NCBI GenBank assembly: GCA_945860895.1
Contig: CAMASK010000003.1
Location: forward strand, 1-64,000
Direction of reading: 5' to 3'
Source: Bacteriovorax stolpii
GTDB lineage: Bacteria > Bdellovibrionota > Bacteriovoracia > Bacteriovoracales > Bacteriovoracaceae
Length of the DNA stretch: 64,000 bases
The notes beneath the pieces were generated by a model that saw only the letters and a list, made by a program, of their open reading frames with translations, was not told the DNA's origin and made no database searches. Numbering within the stretch: position 1 is the first letter of the stretch; every line of letters begins with the position of its first letter. The position numbers and the translations under genes were made by a program. This document shows, piece after piece, positions 4,176 to 45,355 of this stretch.

Positions 4176-5807
4176 ATGTTGTTTAAACTACTTACTATGA
4201 ATAAAAAGAAAAAGTCGTTCGTCCTATCATGGGGACGCAAAATGTTTTTTGGCCTGGGTTGGTGCTTAACTAGTTTAGTCGCCCTCAATTATTTCCAGAG
4301 CATGATTTTTCCCCAGAATTCTATGGAGATGGTCTATTTCTTCACAACCTTCATCGGTCACTATGGCCTGATGTTATCGTTACTTTATTTTCTTTTTTAC
4401 TGTCCGGTTGTTTTAATTTTTCCAACATATTACATTTCAAGAATTTGGTCGCTGACTTTAATTTTATCGGTAAATCTATTTATCTTCTTAGATAGTTATC
4501 TTTTTATAAAGTACCGCTTTCATCTTAATTCATTTTTAGGGAAGTTACTGCTTGATGATCAGGCATCAACTTATTTTGGATTCACTCCTTTAAAAATAGG
4601 TTTAGTGGCTCTCTTTTTAGTGATTGCTTTTTTTATTTTCTGGTTACGAGGGGAAAGAGTCTGGAGATGCATGCAAGCTCGATTTAGTAATCCAGTGAAG
4701 AATTGGTATCTGGTTTTAATTTTAATTTGTTTGGCTTCAAGCAATTTAATTTATTTTTTTAGTGATGCTAATCTCACACAGAATATAAATAGAATCTCAA
4801 ATTTATTTCCTCTCCATTACCAATGGACCACGAAACAAGTTTCAAATGGAGCTGTTTCTAAAAATTTGGGTTACAAAGAATTATATTATCCTGGATCACC
4901 TCTTCAGTGCCAGATGAAGTCACCAAATAATATACTCATGATTGTTTTGGATCATTGGTCTGATTCAGATTCCCTGCATGAAATTGCACCTAATTTAAAT
5001 CACTACAAATCTCATGGTCTTTACTTTAGCGAGCATTTCTCTGGTGGACTTGATGAACAGGAAGGATATTTTTCCATTATTTATTCGATGCCTGGTATTT
5101 ATTTATCGCCAATTTTAAATGAATCAAAGCCATCAGAATTTATTTTGCAGATGAAGAAATCAAATATGGACTTAGCCTTCTTTAAGGATGGAGACAATTC
5201 TCCCGCGGGAAATTTCTTGTTTGAGGAAAAAGAAATCTCTTTGGAAAATTTAGAAGCACTATTAGCGGAGCGAAATGCACTGGCCAAGGTTAATGCGTTT
5301 ATGACTCAAGTCTATCTTTCAGGTGGATCTTTGAATGAGAAGGATTTAAAAGTTAAAAGAATTATTAGTTTATTTTTAAAATATAAGCTTTTGCAAAATT
5401 CGATTGTTGTTATTACTGGTGCAACAGGAAATGAAAAAAATCTTAGAACTCCTATGATTCTCATTTGGCCAGGCCAGGAAGCCGCCGTCATTGAAAAAAC
5501 CACGTCACATTATGATATTCTTCCAACCATCATGGGTCAGAATTGGGGATGTAAAAATCCTACAATTGACTACAGTTTTGGAGTTAATATTTTCTCTAAA
5601 GATCTTATACTTCAGCATCCAGTAGGGACTTATAAATCCCTTCAGATTCTGGATTTTAATAAGCACTTAATTACTACTATAGATGAGGAGAAGGGCTTCA
5701 ATGTTTTTGGCCTGGATTCAAACCAAGAAGTAAATAAAGTAAATAAGGTAGATTTCACGGCCTTGTTAAAAACGTTGGAGAAGCTTACTCTTTTTTATCA
5801 GCGTTGA
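4176..5807 (+). CDS. YejM/PbgA-like membrane-anchored sulfatase-fold protein
   Basis: 543 residues. About five N-terminal membrane segments (roughly 20-200) include 'FLDSYLFIKYRFHLN', which closely resembles the DUF3413 region of enteric YejM. A periplasmic alkaline-phosphatase/sulfatase fold follows from about residue 245. YejM (PbgA/LapC) senses periplasmic LPS and controls LpxC turnover in enteric bacteria. Here the usual sulfatase nucleophile region reads 'SGGLDEQEG', without the Cys/Ser or the Thr seen in YejM, so enzymatic activity is doubtful. Starts at 4176 and 4197 are both possible, and neither has a good ribosome site. The 3' end overlaps rlmC by 23 bases. A lipid or lipid A regulatory role is inferred from similarity. 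Confidence 0.75.
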   Translation: MLFKLLTMNKKKKSFVLSWGRKMFFGLGWCLTSLVALNYFQSMIFPQNSMEMVYFFTTFIGHYGLMLSLLYFLFYCPVVLIFPTYYISRIWSLTLILSVNLFIFLDSYLFIKYRFHLNSFLGKLLLDDQASTYFGFTPLKIGLVALFLVIAFFIFWLRGERVWRCMQARFSNPVKNWYLVLILICLASSNLIYFFSDANLTQNINRISNLFPLHYQWTTKQVSNGAVSKNLGYKELYYPGSPLQCQMKSPNNILMIVLDHWSDSDSLHEIAPNLNHYKSHGLYFSEHFSGGLDEQEGYFSIIYSMPGIYLSPILNESKPSEFILQMKKSNMDLAFFKDGDNSPAGNFLFEEKEISLENLEALLAERNALAKVNAFMTQVYLSGGSLNEKDLKVKRIISLFLKYKLLQNSIVVITGATGNEKNLRTPMILIWPGQEAAVIEKTTSHYDILPTIMGQNWGCKNPTIDYSFGVNIFSKDLILQHPVGTYKSLQILDFNKHLITTIDEEKGFNVFGLDSNQEVNKVNKVDFTALLKTLEKLTLFYQR

Positions 5808-6945
5808 TGGATTTCAAGAGAACGAGAGTTTCAAAGTGGTGGGTATGAGGAAACATATCAAATAATTGAGTTTTCAAAATTTTAAAATCATTCTGAAGTG
5901 TGATTAAATCTTCAGCCAGAGTTTCTGCATTACAACTTGAGTAAATAAAATAATCACACTTCGCTTTTGATAAAACTTCAATGGCCTGGCCAAGGCCTCT
6001 ACGTGGTGGGTTTACCAGGATAATTTGTGGGGAAAATTCATTAACTTCCAAATTAACTTTGGCAGCATCCATAGCTTTAAATTTTAAATGACTAAAATTC
6101 ATTTCCTGTGCAGTTGCGTTTGCACGCGCTACAGCTTCAGGATTTATTTCAATCCCTATGGCTTTTTTGACATGTTTTTGAACAAAAAAACTAAAGGCTC
6201 CTTGTCCGCTATAAAGTTCCATAAAGGTCTCGGCCTTAAGCTCCTTTACCCACTCAGCGGCTGTGGAATAAAGCTTTAAGGCAACCTCCTGATTCGTTTG
6301 AACGAAACCCTGAGGATGAAGTTTCATCGTTACAGGACCTATTTGGTGAGAAATAAAATGAGTTTGTGTAAAAAATATTTCTTCTTCGCCCTCTAAAATC
6401 GCATGTGCTATTGGCTGAATATTAGCAGAAAAACACTTAATCTGAGGAAATTTTAATAAAAATCCTCCAAGATGTTTTTTAATCCGATCGAGGCTTTCTT
6501 TTGAACGCAAAATTAAACGCACATATAATTCTTGAGATTCGGAAGAAAAATAAACGATGATCCCTTTCAATTCGCCAGACTTTAATTTAATTTGATAGGG
6601 TCTTAAATTCGCTTGCTTAATAAAATCAGCAAATACGTTTATAAATTGGTTAATCTTAGGATGATGAAGTGGGCAATCTTTTATATCTCTGCCCTGATCA
6701 AGATCCTCTTCACCCACAAGACCTATCAAGGGCTGCTCTATTGTTCCTGTGATACTAAACTTTGCTTTATTTCTGAAATGCGTTTCTGTCGAACTAACAG
6801 GAGAAAGCATCAGGTTATCTGGGGCGAAAGCTAATAAAGTACTTAATTTATCCACCTTCTTCTGGAGCTGGTCCTTGTAAGGCACTTGTATTTGCGTACA
6901 AGATGCACAAATGTTCTGATTATAGTACTTACAAAAAGTCTTCAT
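5785..6945 (-). CDS. rlmC: 23S rRNA (uracil-747-C5)-methyltransferase RlmC
   Basis: 386 residues. It transfers a methyl group from S-adenosylmethionine to U747 of 23S rRNA. The N-terminus carries the iron-sulfur cysteines (CKYY...CASC, then DCPL near residue 92) that distinguish RlmC. The C-terminal Rossmann domain has 'LVNPPRRGLG' and the catalytic 'SSCNAET' motif. The ending 'LFDMFPHTHHFE' is also typical of the TrmA/RlmC/RlmD family. Length and motif order match E. coli RlmC well, better than RlmD. It lies divergent to mtgA (30-base gap). A TATGAT box sits just before the start. Confidence 0.9.
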   Translation of the reverse strand: MKTFCKYYNQNICASCTQIQVPYKDQLQKKVDKLSTLLAFAPDNLMLSPVSSTETHFRNKAKFSITGTIEQPLIGLVGEEDLDQGRDIKDCPLHHPKINQFINVFADFIKQANLRPYQIKLKSGELKGIIVYFSSESQELYVRLILRSKESLDRIKKHLGGFLLKFPQIKCFSANIQPIAHAILEGEEEIFFTQTHFISHQIGPVTMKLHPQGFVQTNQEVALKLYSTAAEWVKELKAETFMELYSGQGAFSFFVQKHVKKAIGIEINPEAVARANATAQEMNFSHLKFKAMDAAKVNLEVNEFSPQIILVNPPRRGLGQAIEVLSKAKCDYFIYSSCNAETLAEDLITLQNDFKILKTQLFDMFPHTHHFETLVLLKSINADKKE

Positions 6946-7748: not shown

Positions 7749-8219
7749 TCATCTAAAATGCCTCATACATTCATAGGCTACGGCAGTGGCAACATTGGAT
7801 AAATTTAACGATCGAATATGTTCTGAATACATTGGTAATTTATAAAAGTTAGATTTGTACTCATCTTCAATTTCATAAGGAAACCCTTTGGTTTCTCCGC
7901 CAAAGAGAAGATAACAGTCCTGTCCATAAGGAGCATCGTAGTGAACTTTCTCTCCATTATTTTCGAAGAACAGTAGTTTTTCTTTCGGTGGTTTTTCTCG
8001 CATGAGAAAATCTTCCCAAGATTCAAACTCTCTGATTTTGACAAATTTCCAGTAATCGAGTCCGGCCCTTCTCACGGCTTTTTCATCAATTTCAAACCCA
8101 TAAGGCTTGATCAGTAGTAATTCAGCGTTCAGAGCAACGCACGTGCGCCCGATACTCCCGGTATTACCGGGAATTTCAGGCGCAAACAATACGATTTTAA
8201 AAAAAGGCTTATTTTCCAT
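7749..8219 (-). CDS. trmL: tRNA (cytidine/uridine-34-2'-O)-methyltransferase TrmL
   Basis: 156 residues, a minimal SPOUT (SpoU) methyltransferase. It shows 'APEIPGNTGSIGRTC' (motif 1), the central 'LLFGGETKGFP' and the C-terminal 'IRSLNLSNVATAVAYE' knot, all typical of TrmL, which methylates the ribose of the wobble base in tRNA-Leu isoacceptors. Length matches the family. Its start lies 11 bases inside the end of pepA, so the two are translationally coupled. Confidence 0.92.
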   Translation of the reverse strand: MENKPFFKIVLFAPEIPGNTGSIGRTCVALNAELLLIKPYGFEIDEKAVRRAGLDYWKFVKIREFESWEDFLMREKPPKEKLLFFENNGEKVHYDAPYGQDCYLLFGGETKGFPYEIEDEYKSNFYKLPMYSEHIRSLNLSNVATAVAYECMRHFR

Positions 8220-9741
8220 TTACGAGAAGGTGAGTCAGAGTTCTTACAATAAGACCTGAAGCTCCATGAGGTGAACAGTATGGAAGGTGAGATTGAGAAT
8301 CAACTACACCTGCTACATCAAGGTGGGCCCATTTAATATCATTTTTGATGAACTCTTCAAGAAAAGCTGCACCGATAGCTGTACCAGCTCTCATTGGTGT
8401 ACCGATGTTTTTAAGGTCGGCAACCTTAGATTTAATATCCTGGCGCCATTCATTAATGATTGGCAATTGCCACATGTATTCATTCTGAGTTTCAGCAGCA
8501 CCTAGAACTTCGTTAATCCATTTTTGATCGTTACCAAGGATAGCGCAAACTTGATTTCCTAAAGCCACTAAGCAGGCACCCGTCAAAGTTGCCGCATCAA
8601 TGATGTAATGAGGATTCTGATCACAAGCGTAATCAAGTGCATCACCAAGAATTAGGCGTCCTTCTGCATCTGTATTTAAAATTTCTACAGTTTTACCATT
8701 TCTAGCCGTTACTACCGCATCAGGCATCGTGGCATTTTCATTAACGGCATTATCCGTCATAGCAAGGATACAAGTAATTTTAACCGGAGCTTTTTCAAGA
8801 ACAGCTGAACGGAAAGCACCATACACAGTAGCAGAACCACCCATATCGTTTTTCATTCCGGCCATGCTGGCCCCTGGCTTTAAGCTGTAGCCACCAGTAT
8901 CGAAAGTAATACCTTTTCCAACCAGAGCAATGTGTTTAGTTTTTGAAGTTACCTTAGTAGGTTCATACGTTAAGTGTACTAAACGTGGTTCATAAGCAGA
9001 ACCAGCGTTAACTGAAAGAAACATACCCATTTTTTCTTTCTGGATTTGAGCTTTGTTAAGAATCTTGATTTTTACACCTTTAAGATTTTTCTTAACGTCA
9101 GCTTCAATTCTTCTGGCATATTCTTCAGAATGGAGCACATTGGGTACTTCATTGATAAAGTCTTTAATAACATTTATTGATTCGCAAATATTTTTGGTTG
9201 AGGCGAGTGCTTTTTCAATTTTGATGGAGTTTTTCTTTTCTGTATGAGCAAGAATCAGAATGAAATTATATGGCTCAGATTTTTTTGTTTTATATTTATC
9301 AAAAGTATAATCCGTCATCCATGCAGACTCGGCAATTACCCGGGCCGTCTTAGCTTCGTCACGAATAGTATTAAAGCCTGGAACATCGATCCCAATACTT
9401 TCAAATTTACTGCCCCGAGTACCTTTGAGAATTTTAGCGATAACTTTTCGAATATCTTCAGCGTTAAATTTTGTCTTATCCCCAAGACCAACTACCCAAA
9501 CTGTTTCACCAATGGCACCAGTGAATGAAATTGTTTCATCTTTTGCTGCCTTGAAGTTTTTGGCATTTTTTAGATTTTGAAATTCTTCTTTTAAACTATC
9601 ATCATACCAGTGATCTACAGAAACAGTTGTCTCAGATTTCGATCCTTTAGCCTTTGAAATGTGAGTTTTTTGAAAAGCAGTAAGAATTTTTAATTCAGAG
9701 GCGAGAAATTGATCGCCGGTAACATCGAGCTTAATTTGCAT
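8209..9741 (-). CDS. pepA: Leucyl aminopeptidase (M17)
   Basis: 510 residues. A cytosolic, two-metal exopeptidase that removes N-terminal residues from peptides. The C-terminal catalytic domain has 'KGITFDTGGYSLKP' and the signature 'NTDAEGRLILGDAL', with the expected Lys, Asp and Glu metal ligands. The N-terminal macro-like domain is normal. An AAGGAG site lies five bases before the ATG. It leads a pepA-trmL operon and is divergent to lptF. Some PepA proteins also bind DNA in Xer recombination; nothing here tests that. A role in digesting prey or scavenged peptides is plausible but inferred. Confidence 0.95.
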   Translation of the reverse strand: MQIKLDVTGDQFLASELKILTAFQKTHISKAKGSKSETTVSVDHWYDDSLKEEFQNLKNAKNFKAAKDETISFTGAIGETVWVVGLGDKTKFNAEDIRKVIAKILKGTRGSKFESIGIDVPGFNTIRDEAKTARVIAESAWMTDYTFDKYKTKKSEPYNFILILAHTEKKNSIKIEKALASTKNICESINVIKDFINEVPNVLHSEEYARRIEADVKKNLKGVKIKILNKAQIQKEKMGMFLSVNAGSAYEPRLVHLTYEPTKVTSKTKHIALVGKGITFDTGGYSLKPGASMAGMKNDMGGSATVYGAFRSAVLEKAPVKITCILAMTDNAVNENATMPDAVVTARNGKTVEILNTDAEGRLILGDALDYACDQNPHYIIDAATLTGACLVALGNQVCAILGNDQKWINEVLGAAETQNEYMWQLPIINEWRQDIKSKVADLKNIGTPMRAGTAIGAAFLEEFIKNDIKWAHLDVAGVVDSQSHLPYCSPHGASGLIVRTLTHLLVNGK

Positions 9742-38781: not shown

Positions 38782-38811
38782 TTGACACTAGGACTCGGGT
38801 TCTAGTAAATT
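38782..38811 (+). promoter_or_regulatory. Promoter with inverted repeat filling the spacer
   Basis: TTGACA (-35) is followed at once by the inverted repeat CTAGGAC-TCGG-GTTCTAG and then TAAATT as a candidate -10 (18-base spacer). The predicted start is about 14 bases before the response regulator ATG. The placement suggests control by a DNA-binding protein at the spacer. Confidence 0.45.
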
Positions 38812-38831
38812 TGGATTTCCTGGAGGAAACA

Positions 38832-40346
38832 ATGGATGACATAAATTTTCTTCATCAATCATTTGATGGAGCACAAGCTGCAAATAACTTTCCTCCAATC
38901 GTCATTGTTGAGGATGACACACTTCTTGGCATGAGTTTGAAAAAGTATCTCGAACACAGCCTTAAGTTGAAAGTACTTCTGTTTTCAAGTGCAGAAGACT
39001 GCTTGTTGGAATTCGCTAAGAATCACCCACGTGAAAATCCTTTCTGTTTGGTCTCAGATATTAGTCTTGAGAATGGCTCAGACGGGCTTTTGTTAATCGA
39101 CATTTTGAAAGAAAAGGGCTTTGAGTTTGTTTCTATTGTTATGACTGGATTTGCCAGCATTGAAACTGCCATTGCTGCTACTAAAAAAGGATGTTTTCAT
39201 TATTTAACTAAGCCTTTCGAACTTGAAAATTTAAAGATGCTTGTAATTCAAGCACTTCAGACAAAACTTTCTACTAATCTTCCTGTTGATATCATGAACG
39301 AAGGTGTGAATATTTTTGCTGATGGTCCTCGTCGTATGCCATCTAAGCTTAAGATTGATCGTCCAACTGTTGAAGATACTTTTGAAGGCATGATTGGTCG
39401 CTCGCGAATAATGAAAGATGTTTTCGAGAGAATTATTAAGGTTGCCAAGACTGATTCAACGATTCTTATCATGGGACCTTCTGGAACAGGTAAGGAGCTG
39501 GTGGCTTCTGCGATTCATAAATTATCTAATCGTCATCAGAAAAACCGTATTTCAGTTAACTGCGGTGCTATACCGGGTGAGCTTCTTGAGACTGAACTCT
39601 TTGGTCACGTAAAAGGTTCTTTTACTGGGGCCATTTCTAATCGCAAAGGTCGTTTTGAGTTAGCTCAGGGTGGATCAATCTTTTTAGATGAAATTGGCGA
39701 TATGCCAGCACTACTTCAGGTAAAGTTACTGCGTGTTCTTCAAGAGCGCCAGATTGAGCCTGTGGGCTCAACCGAGAATTTACCAATTGACGTGCGCGTG
39801 ATTGCTGCCACTCATAGGGATTTAGAAAAAGCTGTGAATGAAGGTAAGTTTCGCGAAGATTTATTTTACCGTTTGAACGTCATTCCTATAAGAATGCCAG
39901 CACTGAAAGAGCGTCGTGAAGATATTCCTCTTTTGATTTCTCACTTCCTGGATAGATTTGTTTCGGCCGATAGATCAAATGAAATCAGCTTCGCATCTCT
40001 AACCATGGACTTGCTGCTTGGTTATGACTGGCCTGGAAACGTGCGTGAGCTTGAAAACGTAATTGAGCGCTTAGTAATTCTTCGTGGAGGAAATGAAATC
40101 CTCCCTGAGGATCTACCTGCGAAGATTTTCAGGTCAAATCCACTTGCTACTCAAACTTATAAAACATTGTTTGAGCTGCCGGATTTAGGTGTAGATTTGA
40201 AGCAAATCCTCTCTGATATTGAGGACTCTTTGATCCTTCAGGCGATGAATCGCACTCGAGGCAATAAGAATCAAGCCTCGAAGTTGTTGACCTTGAATAG
40301 GACAACCTTGATCGAGAAGATGAAGAAAAAGAATTTAGAACTATAA
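38832..40346 (+). CDS. NtrC-family sigma-54 response regulator
   Basis: 504 residues from ATG 38832, which has GGAGG five bases upstream (the ORF-track TTG is seven codons earlier). A receiver domain (about 23-145) has acidic pocket 'VEDD', phospho-acceptor Asp76 in 'VSDISL' and 'TKPF'. The AAA+ domain has Walker A 'GPSGTGKE', sigma-54 loop 'GSFTGA' and Walker B 'FLDEIGD'. A Fis-type HTH ends the protein ('NKNQASKLLTLNRTTLIEK'). It should activate sigma-54 promoters after phosphorylation. No kinase gene is nearby. It may control the flagellar block that follows; that is inferred from position. Confidence 0.93.
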   Translation: MDDINFLHQSFDGAQAANNFPPIVIVEDDTLLGMSLKKYLEHSLKLKVLLFSSAEDCLLEFAKNHPRENPFCLVSDISLENGSDGLLLIDILKEKGFEFVSIVMTGFASIETAIAATKKGCFHYLTKPFELENLKMLVIQALQTKLSTNLPVDIMNEGVNIFADGPRRMPSKLKIDRPTVEDTFEGMIGRSRIMKDVFERIIKVAKTDSTILIMGPSGTGKELVASAIHKLSNRHQKNRISVNCGAIPGELLETELFGHVKGSFTGAISNRKGRFELAQGGSIFLDEIGDMPALLQVKLLRVLQERQIEPVGSTENLPIDVRVIAATHRDLEKAVNEGKFREDLFYRLNVIPIRMPALKERREDIPLLISHFLDRFVSADRSNEISFASLTMDLLLGYDWPGNVRELENVIERLVILRGGNEILPEDLPAKIFRSNPLATQTYKTLFELPDLGVDLKQILSDIEDSLILQAMNRTRGNKNQASKLLTLNRTTLIEKMKKKNLEL

Positions 40347-41091: not shown

Positions 41092-41119
41092 TTCTGTCAA
41101 TTACTCGACAGAATTTTTT
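41092..41119 (+). terminator. Probable rho-independent terminator
   Basis: TTCTGTC/GACAGAA stem with an eight-base loop followed by six T residues. It lies between the secreted protein gene and the flagellar block. Confidence 0.65.
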
Positions 41120-41239
41120 GCCTATGGGAAAAATATGTCTTTTGGATTTTAAAAACTGAGTTACACTGAAAAAGAGGTAGGTAAAAATGACCATAAGATG
41201 TGGTCACCTCGATTGATGAAAGACAGGAAGTCTTCCAGA

Positions 41240-43942
41240 ATGAAAAAAATGTTTTTGCTTTTTATGACACTCTTTGCTGCCAGCGCGTTTAGCGCAGCTT
41301 CTGTATTAGCTGATATCTTTAATCAAGAAACATTCAAAACACACATCCGCTGGAATCTTCTGGTTCCCAAAGATCAATTCTTTATAAATAAAAAAGAAAG
41401 TACGTTGTTTATTGAAACTGTCAATTTAGAATTGTTTGAACGCTTGACACTAGAATTGACTAAGGTTGAAACTAATAGTCAGTTTATGGAGAGTATCTCC
41501 TTTTCTAAAGCAAATTTTCCGGCGATTGCCGCCACTATTACTGTTAAATTAAAAAATCCTTCAGTGGAGTTATTTTCTTTTTATCGTGATGCTGACAAAA
41601 AATACATTCTCGATTTTTGGATCAATACAGATTTAATTTCTGAAAAAAATGCAGTTTATCAAAAGCCACTGCCTTTACCTATGGCTCAAGAGCCCATAAT
41701 GGAGCTGAAGAAAGCTATTGCCACTAAGGCAAAGGCTAAGAATCCCCTGGCTCCTCGTAAGGGAGGCATTCTACCTATTCTAGAGGTTGACCAAGACTTA
41801 ATTGATGAAAAGATGCCAAACCCTGGTTATAAAGACTTCAGATATGGTGCAAGTTTCATTTGGGACTATCGCCCAATGATTCCTCAAATTGAAAAAGATA
41901 TTAATCTTGCTTCTAAAATTCCTGATTCTCTTTATCAAATTAAAGACCGCGACAATTTAGATGATCCTAAAGAAGCCCACATGCAACTCACGATTAATTT
42001 TTATCGTGAAGAGAAATGGGGCTTGATGAATAAATCAATTACGTTTTATGAGAAGAAATATGGTCGTGACAAAAATGCTGTAACAAACGAGTTTCTTAGG
42101 GCCAACGCCTTGTTAAAAGTGAATATTGCCAAGCCAAACCGTGGAATCACGCAGTCTGCGATGGTAATTATTTCTAATATCAAAGAAATGACTGATGATT
42201 ACGAATTGAAATCGGCCATTCTACGTTATCTCATTCAGTACAGTGTAGATATGAAGGATCATGTCAGGACGCTGGAACTCGCAAAACAACTTTTTGTAGA
42301 GGCCAGAGGCGAATTCGATCAAACCATGGTGATCCAATCCGCACTAACGATCCTTCATGCACTGGCCGAATTAAAGCAAGTTGAAAAAATTGAAGAATTT
42401 TTATCCGATAAAAAATTGGCGAGCATTCTTCCCTCTCAAATGGGAATTGCTTACACCACCTTTGCTCTACTATCTAGAGATGAGACCAAAGAGATTATCA
42501 AGCGTTATAACTCAGTTGCAAAGTCGCTGGTCAAGCCCATTCATCCAGCCATTTTATACAATGTAGCTGAGAGTTATTTTCGTCGTGCTGATTATGTTTC
42601 AGCTGCTAAAATTTTCGATGAATTTCTTGCTACTTATTCTTATCTTCTGCAGGCACCTTTTGCTCGCCTCAGACTCGCCCTGAGTTATGAGCTTTTGGAT
42701 CGAAATGTTGATGAAAACCTCATACTTTACAAAAATGCCATTGATCGTTCTACCGATGCAGCTGCGCGCTTTGAAGCTAAGCTTCGATATGTAGCTTTAA
42801 GAGTTGGTCGCAAGATTAATGTGAATGAGTCTGATAGAGAAACTGAAATTTTTCTTGAACAATCTCCTGATGAAACTAAAGCCATGAGTGCAGATCTTCG
42901 CAAACTCCTTTGGCTTGTTCGTTTGAGAATTTTTATTGCCAATAAAGAATATGAAAAGGCTTTGGCGTACCTTACCTCGATTCCTCTTGATTCAATTAAA
43001 CCAGGTGATAGAAAAGTATTTGAAGCCGATGGAGCAGAAATCATATTTGGAATTATTAAAGATTCTTACTTTAAAGAAGACTACACCAAGGTCGTCAAGG
43101 TTTGGGAAGTTTATAATAGTAAGTATGAAGCTAAAGTGGCTAAAGACCTTTATATCAATTTTGTTGTTTGTGATTCTTTTATTAAGCTTGGATTATATAA
43201 GAGTTATGACCGTGCATTGGAGAATTTCAAAGCTGTACAAGGTGAAGAGAAGAGACTCTTTCCAATTTGGGTTGAGCGAGTTAAATCTATAAATCTATCT
43301 GAGTCAGTGGAAGAATTAGAGATGATCAGAATGGTGGCAGATAAGGACTGGCAAGGTGCCAGCGACAAACTGGCCACATATCCAGTGTCACTTAGGGACT
43401 CATTAAATTATCCATTTTACAGGGGTCTGATCCATTTTAATCAGAAAAACTACTCCGAAGCGGTGTTGGAATTTGAAAAAGTACTGATTAATCAGAACAA
43501 AAATAATCAATTAACACCGAGACAAACAGCTGACCTATTAATGGGTTATGTGGATTCCTTGTATCAGTTGAAAGACCAGGATCGCTTTAAGACAGTAGTG
43601 CGTGCTTTAAGTTCTGACATTAATAATTCAAAGTCGGCACCGATCTTGAATGTTTCTGAGCGAGTCAACTACCTCCTCATCGAGTCATTCGCTGGAGAGG
43701 CAAATCCAGAATGGAAGGAGCTCGAGATGATGACAGGAAAGTTTAGAGAAAAATTTCAAAAATCTCCTTACACTGCGCGAATTGGATACCTTTACGGGTT
43801 ATCATTAATAAAGAACTCGCGCACAAGAGAAGGCAAAGAAGTTCTTAGTCTTTTAACAAAAGATGAAAATGTTCCTCTTCATATTAAGGAAATGTGTAGA
43901 AGTGAATTAGCGACAATGCAATTGCTAGAAAAGAAATTATAA
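41240..43942 (+). CDS. Large secreted TPR protein heading the flagellar block
   Basis: 900 residues from ATG 41240, chosen because AGGAAG lies nine bases upstream and a signal peptide (MKKMFLLFMTLFAASAFSA) begins there; the ORF-track start is 14 codons earlier. A beta-rich N-terminal region (about 20-135, 'PSVELFSFYRDADKKYILDFW') resembles an AMIN-like domain. The rest is helical with many TPR-like pairs, e.g. 'ILYNVAESYFRRADYVSAAKIFDEF' and 'FYRGLIHFNQKNYSEAVLEFEKV'. It lies 34 bases before the FlbD-like gene. A periplasmic scaffold for flagellar or motor assembly is inferred. Confidence 0.72.
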   Translation: MKKMFLLFMTLFAASAFSAASVLADIFNQETFKTHIRWNLLVPKDQFFINKKESTLFIETVNLELFERLTLELTKVETNSQFMESISFSKANFPAIAATITVKLKNPSVELFSFYRDADKKYILDFWINTDLISEKNAVYQKPLPLPMAQEPIMELKKAIATKAKAKNPLAPRKGGILPILEVDQDLIDEKMPNPGYKDFRYGASFIWDYRPMIPQIEKDINLASKIPDSLYQIKDRDNLDDPKEAHMQLTINFYREEKWGLMNKSITFYEKKYGRDKNAVTNEFLRANALLKVNIAKPNRGITQSAMVIISNIKEMTDDYELKSAILRYLIQYSVDMKDHVRTLELAKQLFVEARGEFDQTMVIQSALTILHALAELKQVEKIEEFLSDKKLASILPSQMGIAYTTFALLSRDETKEIIKRYNSVAKSLVKPIHPAILYNVAESYFRRADYVSAAKIFDEFLATYSYLLQAPFARLRLALSYELLDRNVDENLILYKNAIDRSTDAAARFEAKLRYVALRVGRKINVNESDRETEIFLEQSPDETKAMSADLRKLLWLVRLRIFIANKEYEKALAYLTSIPLDSIKPGDRKVFEADGAEIIFGIIKDSYFKEDYTKVVKVWEVYNSKYEAKVAKDLYINFVVCDSFIKLGLYKSYDRALENFKAVQGEEKRLFPIWVERVKSINLSESVEELEMIRMVADKDWQGASDKLATYPVSLRDSLNYPFYRGLIHFNQKNYSEAVLEFEKVLINQNKNNQLTPRQTADLLMGYVDSLYQLKDQDRFKTVVRALSSDINNSKSAPILNVSERVNYLLIESFAGEANPEWKELEMMTGKFREKFQKSPYTARIGYLYGLSLIKNSRTREGKEVLSLLTKDENVPLHIKEMCRSELATMQLLEKKL

Positions 43943-43976: not shown

Positions 43977-44918
43977 ATGTTAACTCAAGGTTTAGTACTC
44001 GTAGGTAATCACCCTAAATTCAACACCACTCTTGAAATGGCTCGTAATGTAGCTGTTACCAAGACTCCTATCTTAATTTTAGGAGAAACTGGATCAGGGA
44101 AAAAAGCTATTGGAGCTTACATTCATCAGAATTCAGCTCGCAAAAATGCCAAGCTTGAAATCGTAGATTGTAGCCTTGATACACAAACTGTTGAGAAGAT
44201 CGTCCTGGGTTTTCGTGATGATGAAACTGGTCGTTTCAACCGTGGCGTTTTAGAAGTTGCCAATGGTGGTACGGTAATATTTTCCAATGTTGACGCACTG
44301 GATGAAGTTTTTCAGAAACGCCTCTATACTATCCTTCAAGAGCTGCCTGATTATGAATTAGATGTCCGCGTACTTGCTACTTCTTCTAAGAATCTTTCAA
44401 AGTTGGTTGGTGCAGGTAAGTTCTCTCGTGCTCTTTATACTTATTTTAGCGGAGCGCAGATCGATATGATCTCTCTTCGTGAAAGAGGAACAGACGTGGA
44501 ATTGATTGCTCGTCATTTCATTAATGAGTATGCCTCAGAAAATTCTTCTGGCGAACTTTCACTTTGCGAAGAAGCTGCTCGCAAACTTTCTGATTACAAC
44601 TGGAACCAAAATCTAATCGAACTTCGTTCTTTCATCCGTAAGACTCTTACAAATATGGAAGGGAGAACTCTTGATCTTGCTGCCATTGAAAATGGTGAGC
44701 GTAAAGTTGAATTCAAATCATCTGAAATTGATGAGGATGGATTCAAACTGATGTCCTTGAAAGAAGCTGAAAAGCTGTTGATCAAGAAAGCATTAGTATT
44801 TACTTCTGAAAACAGAACACAAGCTGCAAAAATTCTTGGTGTTTCTATTCGTACACTCAGAAATAAGATCAATGAGTATAGAGGCGAAGGCGCAACTTAC
44901 TTTATTAATTTAAGATAA
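43977..44918 (+). CDS. FlbD-like flagellar regulator with degenerate AAA+ domain
   Basis: 313 residues. There is no receiver domain. Walker A is kept ('GETGSGKK', about 36-43), but the sigma-54 loop GAFTGA is missing (its place reads 'LGFRDDETGRF') and Walker B is 'GGTVIFSNVD' instead of 'GGTLFLDEI', losing Asp and Glu. The Fis-type HTH is intact ('NRTQAAKILGVSIRTLRNKI', about 279-298). It lies immediately upstream of flgB with GGAGG before the ATG. It likely binds flagellar promoters but cannot remodel sigma-54 alone; it may act as a repressor or pair with a complete activator. Confidence 0.82.
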   Translation: MLTQGLVLVGNHPKFNTTLEMARNVAVTKTPILILGETGSGKKAIGAYIHQNSARKNAKLEIVDCSLDTQTVEKIVLGFRDDETGRFNRGVLEVANGGTVIFSNVDALDEVFQKRLYTILQELPDYELDVRVLATSSKNLSKLVGAGKFSRALYTYFSGAQIDMISLRERGTDVELIARHFINEYASENSSGELSLCEEAARKLSDYNWNQNLIELRSFIRKTLTNMEGRTLDLAAIENGERKVEFKSSEIDEDGFKLMSLKEAEKLLIKKALVFTSENRTQAAKILGVSIRTLRNKINEYRGEGATYFINLR

Positions 44919-44947: not shown

Positions 44948-45355
44948 ATGGATGTGAATGACAAGACACTAAAAGCACTTACGACCGCGCTGAACTTTCG
45001 GGAGATGCGCCAGGAGTTGATCTCCTCCAACGTCGCCAATGCTAATACGCCAGGATTCAAAGCCAAAAAAATGGACTTTGAAGAGGCGCTAGCTCGAGCA
45101 CTGGATGTTGACGGTAATATGGGCATGAATGTGACTGATGGGCGTCATCACAATGTTGGTAATGGTGGCTTTAATAATTTAGAACCGGAAATTTATGATA
45201 ATCCAAATGGAGTCGTGAGTGAAAATGGAAACACGGTAGATGTTGAAGCTGAAATGGCCCAGATGGCAGAGAATAAATTGATGTATGATGCCCTGGTTCA
45301 GCTGATCAATAAAAAGATGGGTATTATGAAATACGCCATTAATCAAGAGAAATAA
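44948..45355 (+). CDS. flgB: Flagellar basal-body rod protein FlgB
   Basis: 135 residues, proximal rod subunit. The 'LISSNVANANTPGFKAKKMDFEEAL' rod signature near residue 25 and the C-terminal 'ENKLMYDALVQLINKKMGIMKYAI' helix are typical. AAGG precedes the ATG. First structural gene of the block, 29 bases after the FlbD-like gene. Confidence 0.97.
   Translation: MDVNDKTLKALTTALNFREMRQELISSNVANANTPGFKAKKMDFEEALARALDVDGNMGMNVTDGRHHNVGNGGFNNLEPEIYDNPNGVVSENGNTVDVEAEMAQMAENKLMYDALVQLINKKMGIMKYAINQEK

Follow-up and report, generated by a model that had tools for sequence, protein, structure and literature searches.

A receiver-less bEBP of the flagellar TPR-X-flgB operon without recognisable sigma-54 motor motifs, and a putative sigma-70-type promoter of its operon in Bacteriovoracaceae

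The window analysed here, a stretch of 64,000 nucleotides from Bacteriovorax stolpii, carries a flagellar operon in which the gene of a TPR protein is followed by a gene for a degenerate bacterial enhancer-binding protein (bEBP) and then by flgB. The product of the gene in this position (TPR-X-flgB) is referred to below as the slot protein, or X when orthologues are compared. The position between the TPR gene and flgB, given by a first-pass annotation made from the letters only, was confirmed and proved syntenic across the phylum. The genes and protein features are as follows.

38811..40346, + strand: complete paralogue with receiver, AAA+ and HTH (REC paralogue), GSFTGA and DE intact
41240..43942, + strand: TPR protein gene, first of the operon; likely start ATG 41240, signal peptide MKKMFLLFMTLF...
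43977..44918, + strand: degenerate receiver-less bEBP (slot protein), 313 aa; from ORF, Pfam and alignment
44082..44105, + strand: Walker A GETGSGKK, residues 36-43, retained; Lys42 in 32/32 Bacteriovoracaceae
44205..44252, + strand: replacement of loop L1, residues 77-92, LGFRDDETGRFNRGVL, conserved, GAFTGA deleted; from alignment
44274..44294, + strand: Walker B VIFSNVD, residues 100-106, Asp-Glu changed to Ser-Asn; from alignment
44340..44354, + strand: loop L2 deleted, conserved replacement ELPDY, residues 122-126; from alignment
44418..44453, + strand: arginine-finger segment KFSRALYTYFSG, residues 148-159, both Arg gone; canonical FREDLFYRLN
44601..44624, + strand: sensor II segment WNQNLIEL, residues 209-216, without Arg; canonical WPGNVREL
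44748..44885, + strand: Fis-type HTH, residues 258-303, the most conserved part by column conservation
44886..44915, + strand: C-terminal tail YF[V/I]NLR, residues 304-313, specific to Bacteriovoracaceae and conserved by column
44948..45355, + strand: flgB, the next gene of the operon

The slot reading frame (43977-44918, + strand) opens with ATG and codes for 313 aa, in which Pfam finds Sigma54_activat (76 bits), AAA_lid_14 (43 bits), and HTH_8 (35.5 bits) and no receiver domain. Motifs were called from an alignment of the protein to the orthologues of relatives and to the complete bEBPs encoded in its own genome. The GAFTGA region aligns as LGFRDDETGRF--NRG, that is, with a deletion, FREDLFYRLN of the arginine-finger segment is replaced by FSRALYTYFSG, and GNVREL of sensor II by QNLIEL, while the place of the switch Asn is taken by D64 and the sensor-I Asn is also lost; the Walker B Asp-Glu pair is mostly A/S-N across Bacteriovoracaceae. 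Neither GAFTGA nor DE occurs at any alternative aligned place in the slot protein. The first-pass annotation had reported the loss of GAFTGA and of the Walker B Asp-Glu beside a retained Walker A and Fis HTH; the alignment bears this out and adds L2, both arginine fingers, the switch Asn, the sensor-I Asn, and the sensor-II Arg, so the damage had been understated. The AlphaFold model has block pLDDT values of 86-95 over the AAA+ core (80.8 as the mean of the whole protein), and among the PDB structures matched by Foldseek the AAA+ domains of FlrC (top), FleQ, and NtrC1 are the best, with VpsR at rank 32. The slot protein is thus predicted to keep the bEBP fold, an AAA+ domain with its lid and a Fis HTH. 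In bEBPs GAFTGA contacts sigma-54, while the Walker B Glu, the arginine fingers, and the sensors drive ATP hydrolysis and loop movement (PMC7175178, PMC12054792). Since L1, L2, Walker B, the arginine fingers, and the sensors are all gone, the slot protein should not open sigma-54 promoters alone, as had been proposed at the outset.

A column-by-column check was made in 32 representatives of Bacteriovoracaceae (31 genera), the family, coded f1, that holds the source genome G000. GAFTGA is deleted in 32/32, the Walker B pair, both arginine fingers, and the sensor-II Arg are found in 0/32, and the Walker A Lys is present in all 32, these counts being descriptive, as the genomes are mostly drafts and the members are phylogenetically non-independent. 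The losses seen in the window are therefore shared by relatives, which was one of the checks suggested for this gene. The median dN/dS of the slot gene over 55 pairs within the genus is 0.07 (0.067 for AAA+ and 0.024 for the HTH). The mean column conservation of the HTH block is 0.95 in Bacteriovoracaceae vs 0.71 in the intact orthologues of other families, and that of the tail YF[VI]NLR 0.77 vs 0.29. Because the HTH is more conserved than in intact orthologues and the tail is newly conserved, the slot protein is constrained in new ways rather than relaxed. It is under strong purifying selection.

The order TPR-X-flgB-flgC-fliE-fliF-fliG/H/I is conserved across the phylum, with TPR-X-flgB present in 8/8 flagellated Bacteriovoracaceae loci for which both sides were retrieved and also in other families. 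X was inspected in about 70 genomes. It is a complete receiver-less bEBP in the families f3, f8, f11, f14, f15, f21, f25, and f27, and 27/27 intact orthologues of other families have GAFTGA or GSFTGA, DE, both arginine fingers, and the sensor-II Arg. By synteny and motif content, the slot gene descends from a canonical receiver-less sigma-54 activator of the FlbD type occupying TPR-X-flgB across Bdellovibrionota. Three further families have a degenerate X: in f6 (Bdellovibrio-like; L150-L157) the erosion is different from and deeper than that in f1 (257-313 aa), in f12 L1 and L2 are altered and the second arginine finger and the sensor-II Arg retained, and in f23 X is at an early stage, with GAFTGA and DE lost and the rest largely retained. 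Since a tree of FliF+FliG+FliI places f12 beside the intact f8 and f6 with the intact f11 and f21, both with 100% support, the motor is judged from these sequences to have been lost at least three times independently in one syntenic gene. The recognition helix G(V/I)SIRTLRNK is retained in each motor-loss lineage. Taken together, the alignments show that in Bacteriovoracaceae the whole predicted sigma-54-remodelling engine has been lost, and that strong selection still maintains the fold and Walker A, and the HTH most of all.

Promoter types were compared across lineages at the TPR-X-flgB operon, one flagellar operon, with a hand-weighted -24/-12 matrix (TGGCAYnnnnnnTGCW). Of the 26 operons with intact X, 25 have a sigma-54 site ahead of the TPR gene, and it ranks first or second in the whole locus. 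With the same hand-set matrix no such site was found before the TPR gene in any of the 15 Bacteriovoracaceae loci or the two f12 loci; it is kept in six f6 loci and in the f23 locus despite the degenerate X. Within the 64-kb window 28 sites were found vs 27 expected, which is the chance level. Sigma-54 itself has not been lost, as rpoN is present in every genome tested. In Bacteriovoracaceae the place of the sigma-54 site is taken by another element.

41095..41110, + strand: TGTC-N8-GACA dyad upstream of the promoter; half-site YGTCA, enriched before intact-lineage operons too
41105..41167, + strand: 63-bp promoter element of the TPR-slot-flgB operon, Bacteriovoracaceae-wide; ungapped motif, profile search
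41116-41132, + strand: dyad TTTTGCC-TAT-GGGAAAA within the element; from its self-match on the other strand
41162-41167, + strand: -10-like TACACT at the end of the element; a reading of the conserved footprint

The element is ungapped and ends in TANANT (the TANAAT box), to which its spacing is fixed, and its core is the dyad, which matches itself on the opposite strand. It was found in 19 of 21 Bacteriovoracaceae loci with scores of 37-61 vs a shuffle maximum of 7.1; as it was derived from the same loci, its presence there is partly by construction, but its uniqueness is not. A profile search gave one strong match per genome (37-55 bits), at the TPR-slot-flgB operon, in 11/11 Bacteriovoracaceae genomes, the next-best matches reaching at most 19.4 bits, so that no second site of a wider regulon stood clearly over background in these 11 genomes. 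In one genome from each of four other families (G054, G065, G082, and G049) nothing scored above 18.1 bits. The element is missing in two Bacteriovoracaceae loci, G028 and G216, both of which keep the slot protein. A YGTCA half-site occupies a fixed position just upstream in 12 of the 19 promoters (4% in shuffles), and in intact lineages the words TGTCA and GTCAAA are likewise over-represented ahead of the sigma-54 promoters; the pattern fits a protein whose recognition helix has not changed and which has kept its ancestral half-site. From the conserved TANAAT and the dyad upstream of it we infer a promoter of the sigma-70 type, the assignment of -10 and -35 being a reading of the footprint with a poor -35. 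A classical FliA promoter (TTAAG-N16-CCGATA, PMC3627812) was considered and rejected: in some genomes the dyad contains letters resembling GCCGAT, but their spacing is wrong for FliA. The f6 operon retains its sigma-54 promoter and an upstream site containing TGTCGG beside a motorless slot protein, so some other bEBP must open that promoter, and loss of the motor does not have to entail a change of sigma factor.

The TPR gene probably starts at ATG 41240, which opens a signal peptide, and not at the upstream ATG 41198 (41198-41240). A short hairpin (aagac-AGGAA-gtctt, 41220-41234), a putative CsrA-type site, carries the ribosome-binding site of the TPR gene in its loop; its stems vary compensatorily between genera (gaaac/gtttc, aagac/gtctt, gagc/gctc), and it has similar counterparts in most Bacteriovoracaceae loci and in some other families. 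A stem of at least 5 around a GGA loop is found in 20/49 loci vs 2.5 in shuffles, and csrA is present in the source genome. In relatives within the genus (L065, L167-L178), a small gene for a lipoprotein-like product diverges from the TPR gene on its upstream side, with an apparent FliA-like promoter (TTAA-N16-CCGCTAA) on the opposite strand.

The REC paralogue is linked to the slot gene in most Bacteriovoracaceae loci, including those of flagellum-less genera; in G034 the 3 kb preceding the TPR gene hold no REC paralogue, and outside Bacteriovoracaceae the two genes are not neighbours. The HTH recognition helices of the two proteins differ. Among the HTH_8 proteins of G000 no second one has the slot recognition helix, and in G016 and G027 the search for such a protein gave only the slot gene and one more distant HTH. 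Two other bEBP paralogues of the source genome also have no GAFTGA.

G000:C22:20404-21267 (L008): bEBP paralogue without GAFTGA, IDDI in the place of Walker B
G000:C52:9799-10248 (L009): bEBP paralogue without GAFTGA, VDEV in the place of Walker B

Some Bacteriovoracaceae have no recognisable flagellum. A flgB match is absent from the genera g36 (four genomes) and g50 (one genome), as is FliI, and FliF gave no match in g36 and a remote one only in g50. The slot protein is retained in all five genomes, at 49-53% identity and with an HTH that has hardly changed, and the 63-bp element is kept in the three g36 loci examined. The g36 slot gene has metK, the REC paralogue, and a shortened TPR gene on one side and a lone divergent FliF-like protein on the other; such genes were annotated in two loci.

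L187 (G127) 5032-6324, - strand: lone divergent FliF/YscJ-like gene (Pfam YscJ_FliF), directly downstream of the slot gene
L190 (G216) 8095-9690, + strand: lone divergent FliF/YscJ-like gene (Pfam YscJ_FliF), directly downstream of the slot gene

The G216 gene is followed by SurA- and MreC-like genes, which also come after the flagellar cluster of the window. Because flagellum-less g36 and g50 keep the slot protein, and g36 also the promoter element, its role is, on this gene content, not only flagellar.

The reading we prefer, with a probability of about 0.55, is that the slot protein was once a flagellar activator working with sigma-54 and has been remodelled at the same locus into an autoregulator that binds DNA and acts on a promoter of the sigma-70 type. 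It would bind the operator region of its own operon, at the TGTCA dyad and/or the TTGCC-N3-GGNAAA dyad adjoining the weak -35, and would act as an oligomer, possibly binding a nucleotide without hydrolysing it, so that nucleotide-gated oligomerisation may be involved. Control of the sigma-70-type promoter would be direct, and most likely that of an autoregulatory activator like VpsR and Rhodobacter capsulatus NtrC. It has precedent in the GAFTGA-less bEBPs R. capsulatus NtrC, Caulobacter NtrC, and VpsR, which act at sigma-70 promoters, the first of them by binding ATP without hydrolysing it (PMC10274813). An activator is preferred over a repressor because the dyad adjoins a weak -35 and the ancestor was an activator. 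Against this reading, the operator may be that of the linked REC paralogue or of some other regulator, f6 is motorless yet keeps its sigma-54 promoter, and G028 and G216 keep the protein without the element. A wider scenario is put forward tentatively, at less than even odds: the bEBP and the promoter of its operon would have been converted together from sigma-54 to the sigma-70 type in one family, sister lineages losing the same motor independently (f6 keeping the sigma-54 promoter), and the motorless protein would since have become independent of flagella, so that in relatives without them it serves a different function together with a residual FliF-like ring protein.

The single high-scoring element per genome, at the protein's own operon, the hyper-conserved HTH, and a dyad abutting the core promoter would also suit a pure DNA-binding autorepressor with the AAA+ domain as an oligomerisation platform only; yet the dyad ends upstream of the -10 and adjoins a weak -35, a position typical of activators, and descent from an activator also makes repression unlikely. 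Alternatively, the slot protein might enter a mixed ring as an inactive subunit and there either anchor the complete REC paralogue from 38.8 kb to DNA or poison it. The linkage of the two genes even in flagellum-less loci and the AAA+ fold and lid kept under selection speak for such a ring, and to this extent the pairing proposed in the first-pass annotation stands; but the slot protein has lost both arginine fingers along with further residues that act in trans, the recognition helices differ, the operon has no sigma-54 site, and the paralogue is missing from the 3 kb ahead of the TPR gene in G034 and does not adjoin the slot gene in other families. A mixed ring is accordingly rated as improbable, and less likely than direct control by an autoregulator.

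The initial suggestion of an antagonist competing with a complete sigma-54 activator on shared sites is not borne out, as no other HTH_8 protein of the source genome shares the recognition helix and the operon has no sigma-54 promoter. That the slot protein still activates sigma-54 through an unrecognised contact would agree with rpoN in every genome tested, but with L1, L2, Walker B, and the arginine fingers all absent, and the sigma-54 promoter of the operon too, we regard it as very improbable. Lost catalytic motifs could also mean decay, a pseudogene, a frameshift, or an assembly error, which is excluded for practical purposes by identical losses in 32/32 representatives, open frames, a dN/dS of 0.07, and newly conserved loops and tail. 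The argument that intact relatives would imply decay or error does not apply, as the intact relatives are other families and the loss in Bacteriovoracaceae is shared under purifying selection.

To our knowledge, sigma-54 activators are usually thought to depend on GAFTGA and on hydrolysing ATP; bEBPs without GAFTGA are few, and those that we know of, VpsR and some NtrCs, are isolated cases. Here one syntenic gene offers a graded natural series, from intact through early loss (f23) and deep loss with the sigma-54 promoter kept (f6) to deep loss with the promoter apparently switched (Bacteriovoracaceae). The series makes testable how a regulator changes its sigma factor, what use the AAA+ domain has once ATP hydrolysis is gone, and why the slot protein outlives the flagellum.

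FlbD is a flagellar bEBP of Caulobacter, and the first-pass label FlbD-like holds in that FlbD is the best-scoring named family (NCBIfam NF050807, 157 bits), though far below the curated cut-off of 750. The two share a flagellar gene neighbourhood and a Fis HTH; however, the slot match begins at position 120 of the 454-position model, the slot protein having no receiver-sized N-terminal part, and FlbD has GAFTGA (PMC10274813), whereas the slot protein is without the sigma-54 and ATPase motifs. FleQ and FlrC share the AAA+ fold but keep a working ATPase and sigma-54 contacts, and FleQ acts at both sigma-54 and sigma-70 promoters (PMC10723142). VpsR of Vibrio cholerae (PDB 7v2b), the third sequence match to the slot protein and a significant fold match too, is likewise GAFTGA-less, with a shortened L1 and an altered Walker B (LLLNDI), but it has an extra N-terminal domain, keeps the L2-region and sensor-II residues (GNVREL), is activated by c-di-GMP, and is not an orthologue. 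The R. capsulatus and Caulobacter NtrCs combine a deleted L1, a loss shared by the slot protein, with sigma-70 promoters (PMC10274813); they have receivers and control nitrogen genes, while the slot protein has also lost Walker B, the arginine fingers, and L2, and, unlike in those NtrCs, the promoter change of its linked operon is visible in the sequence.
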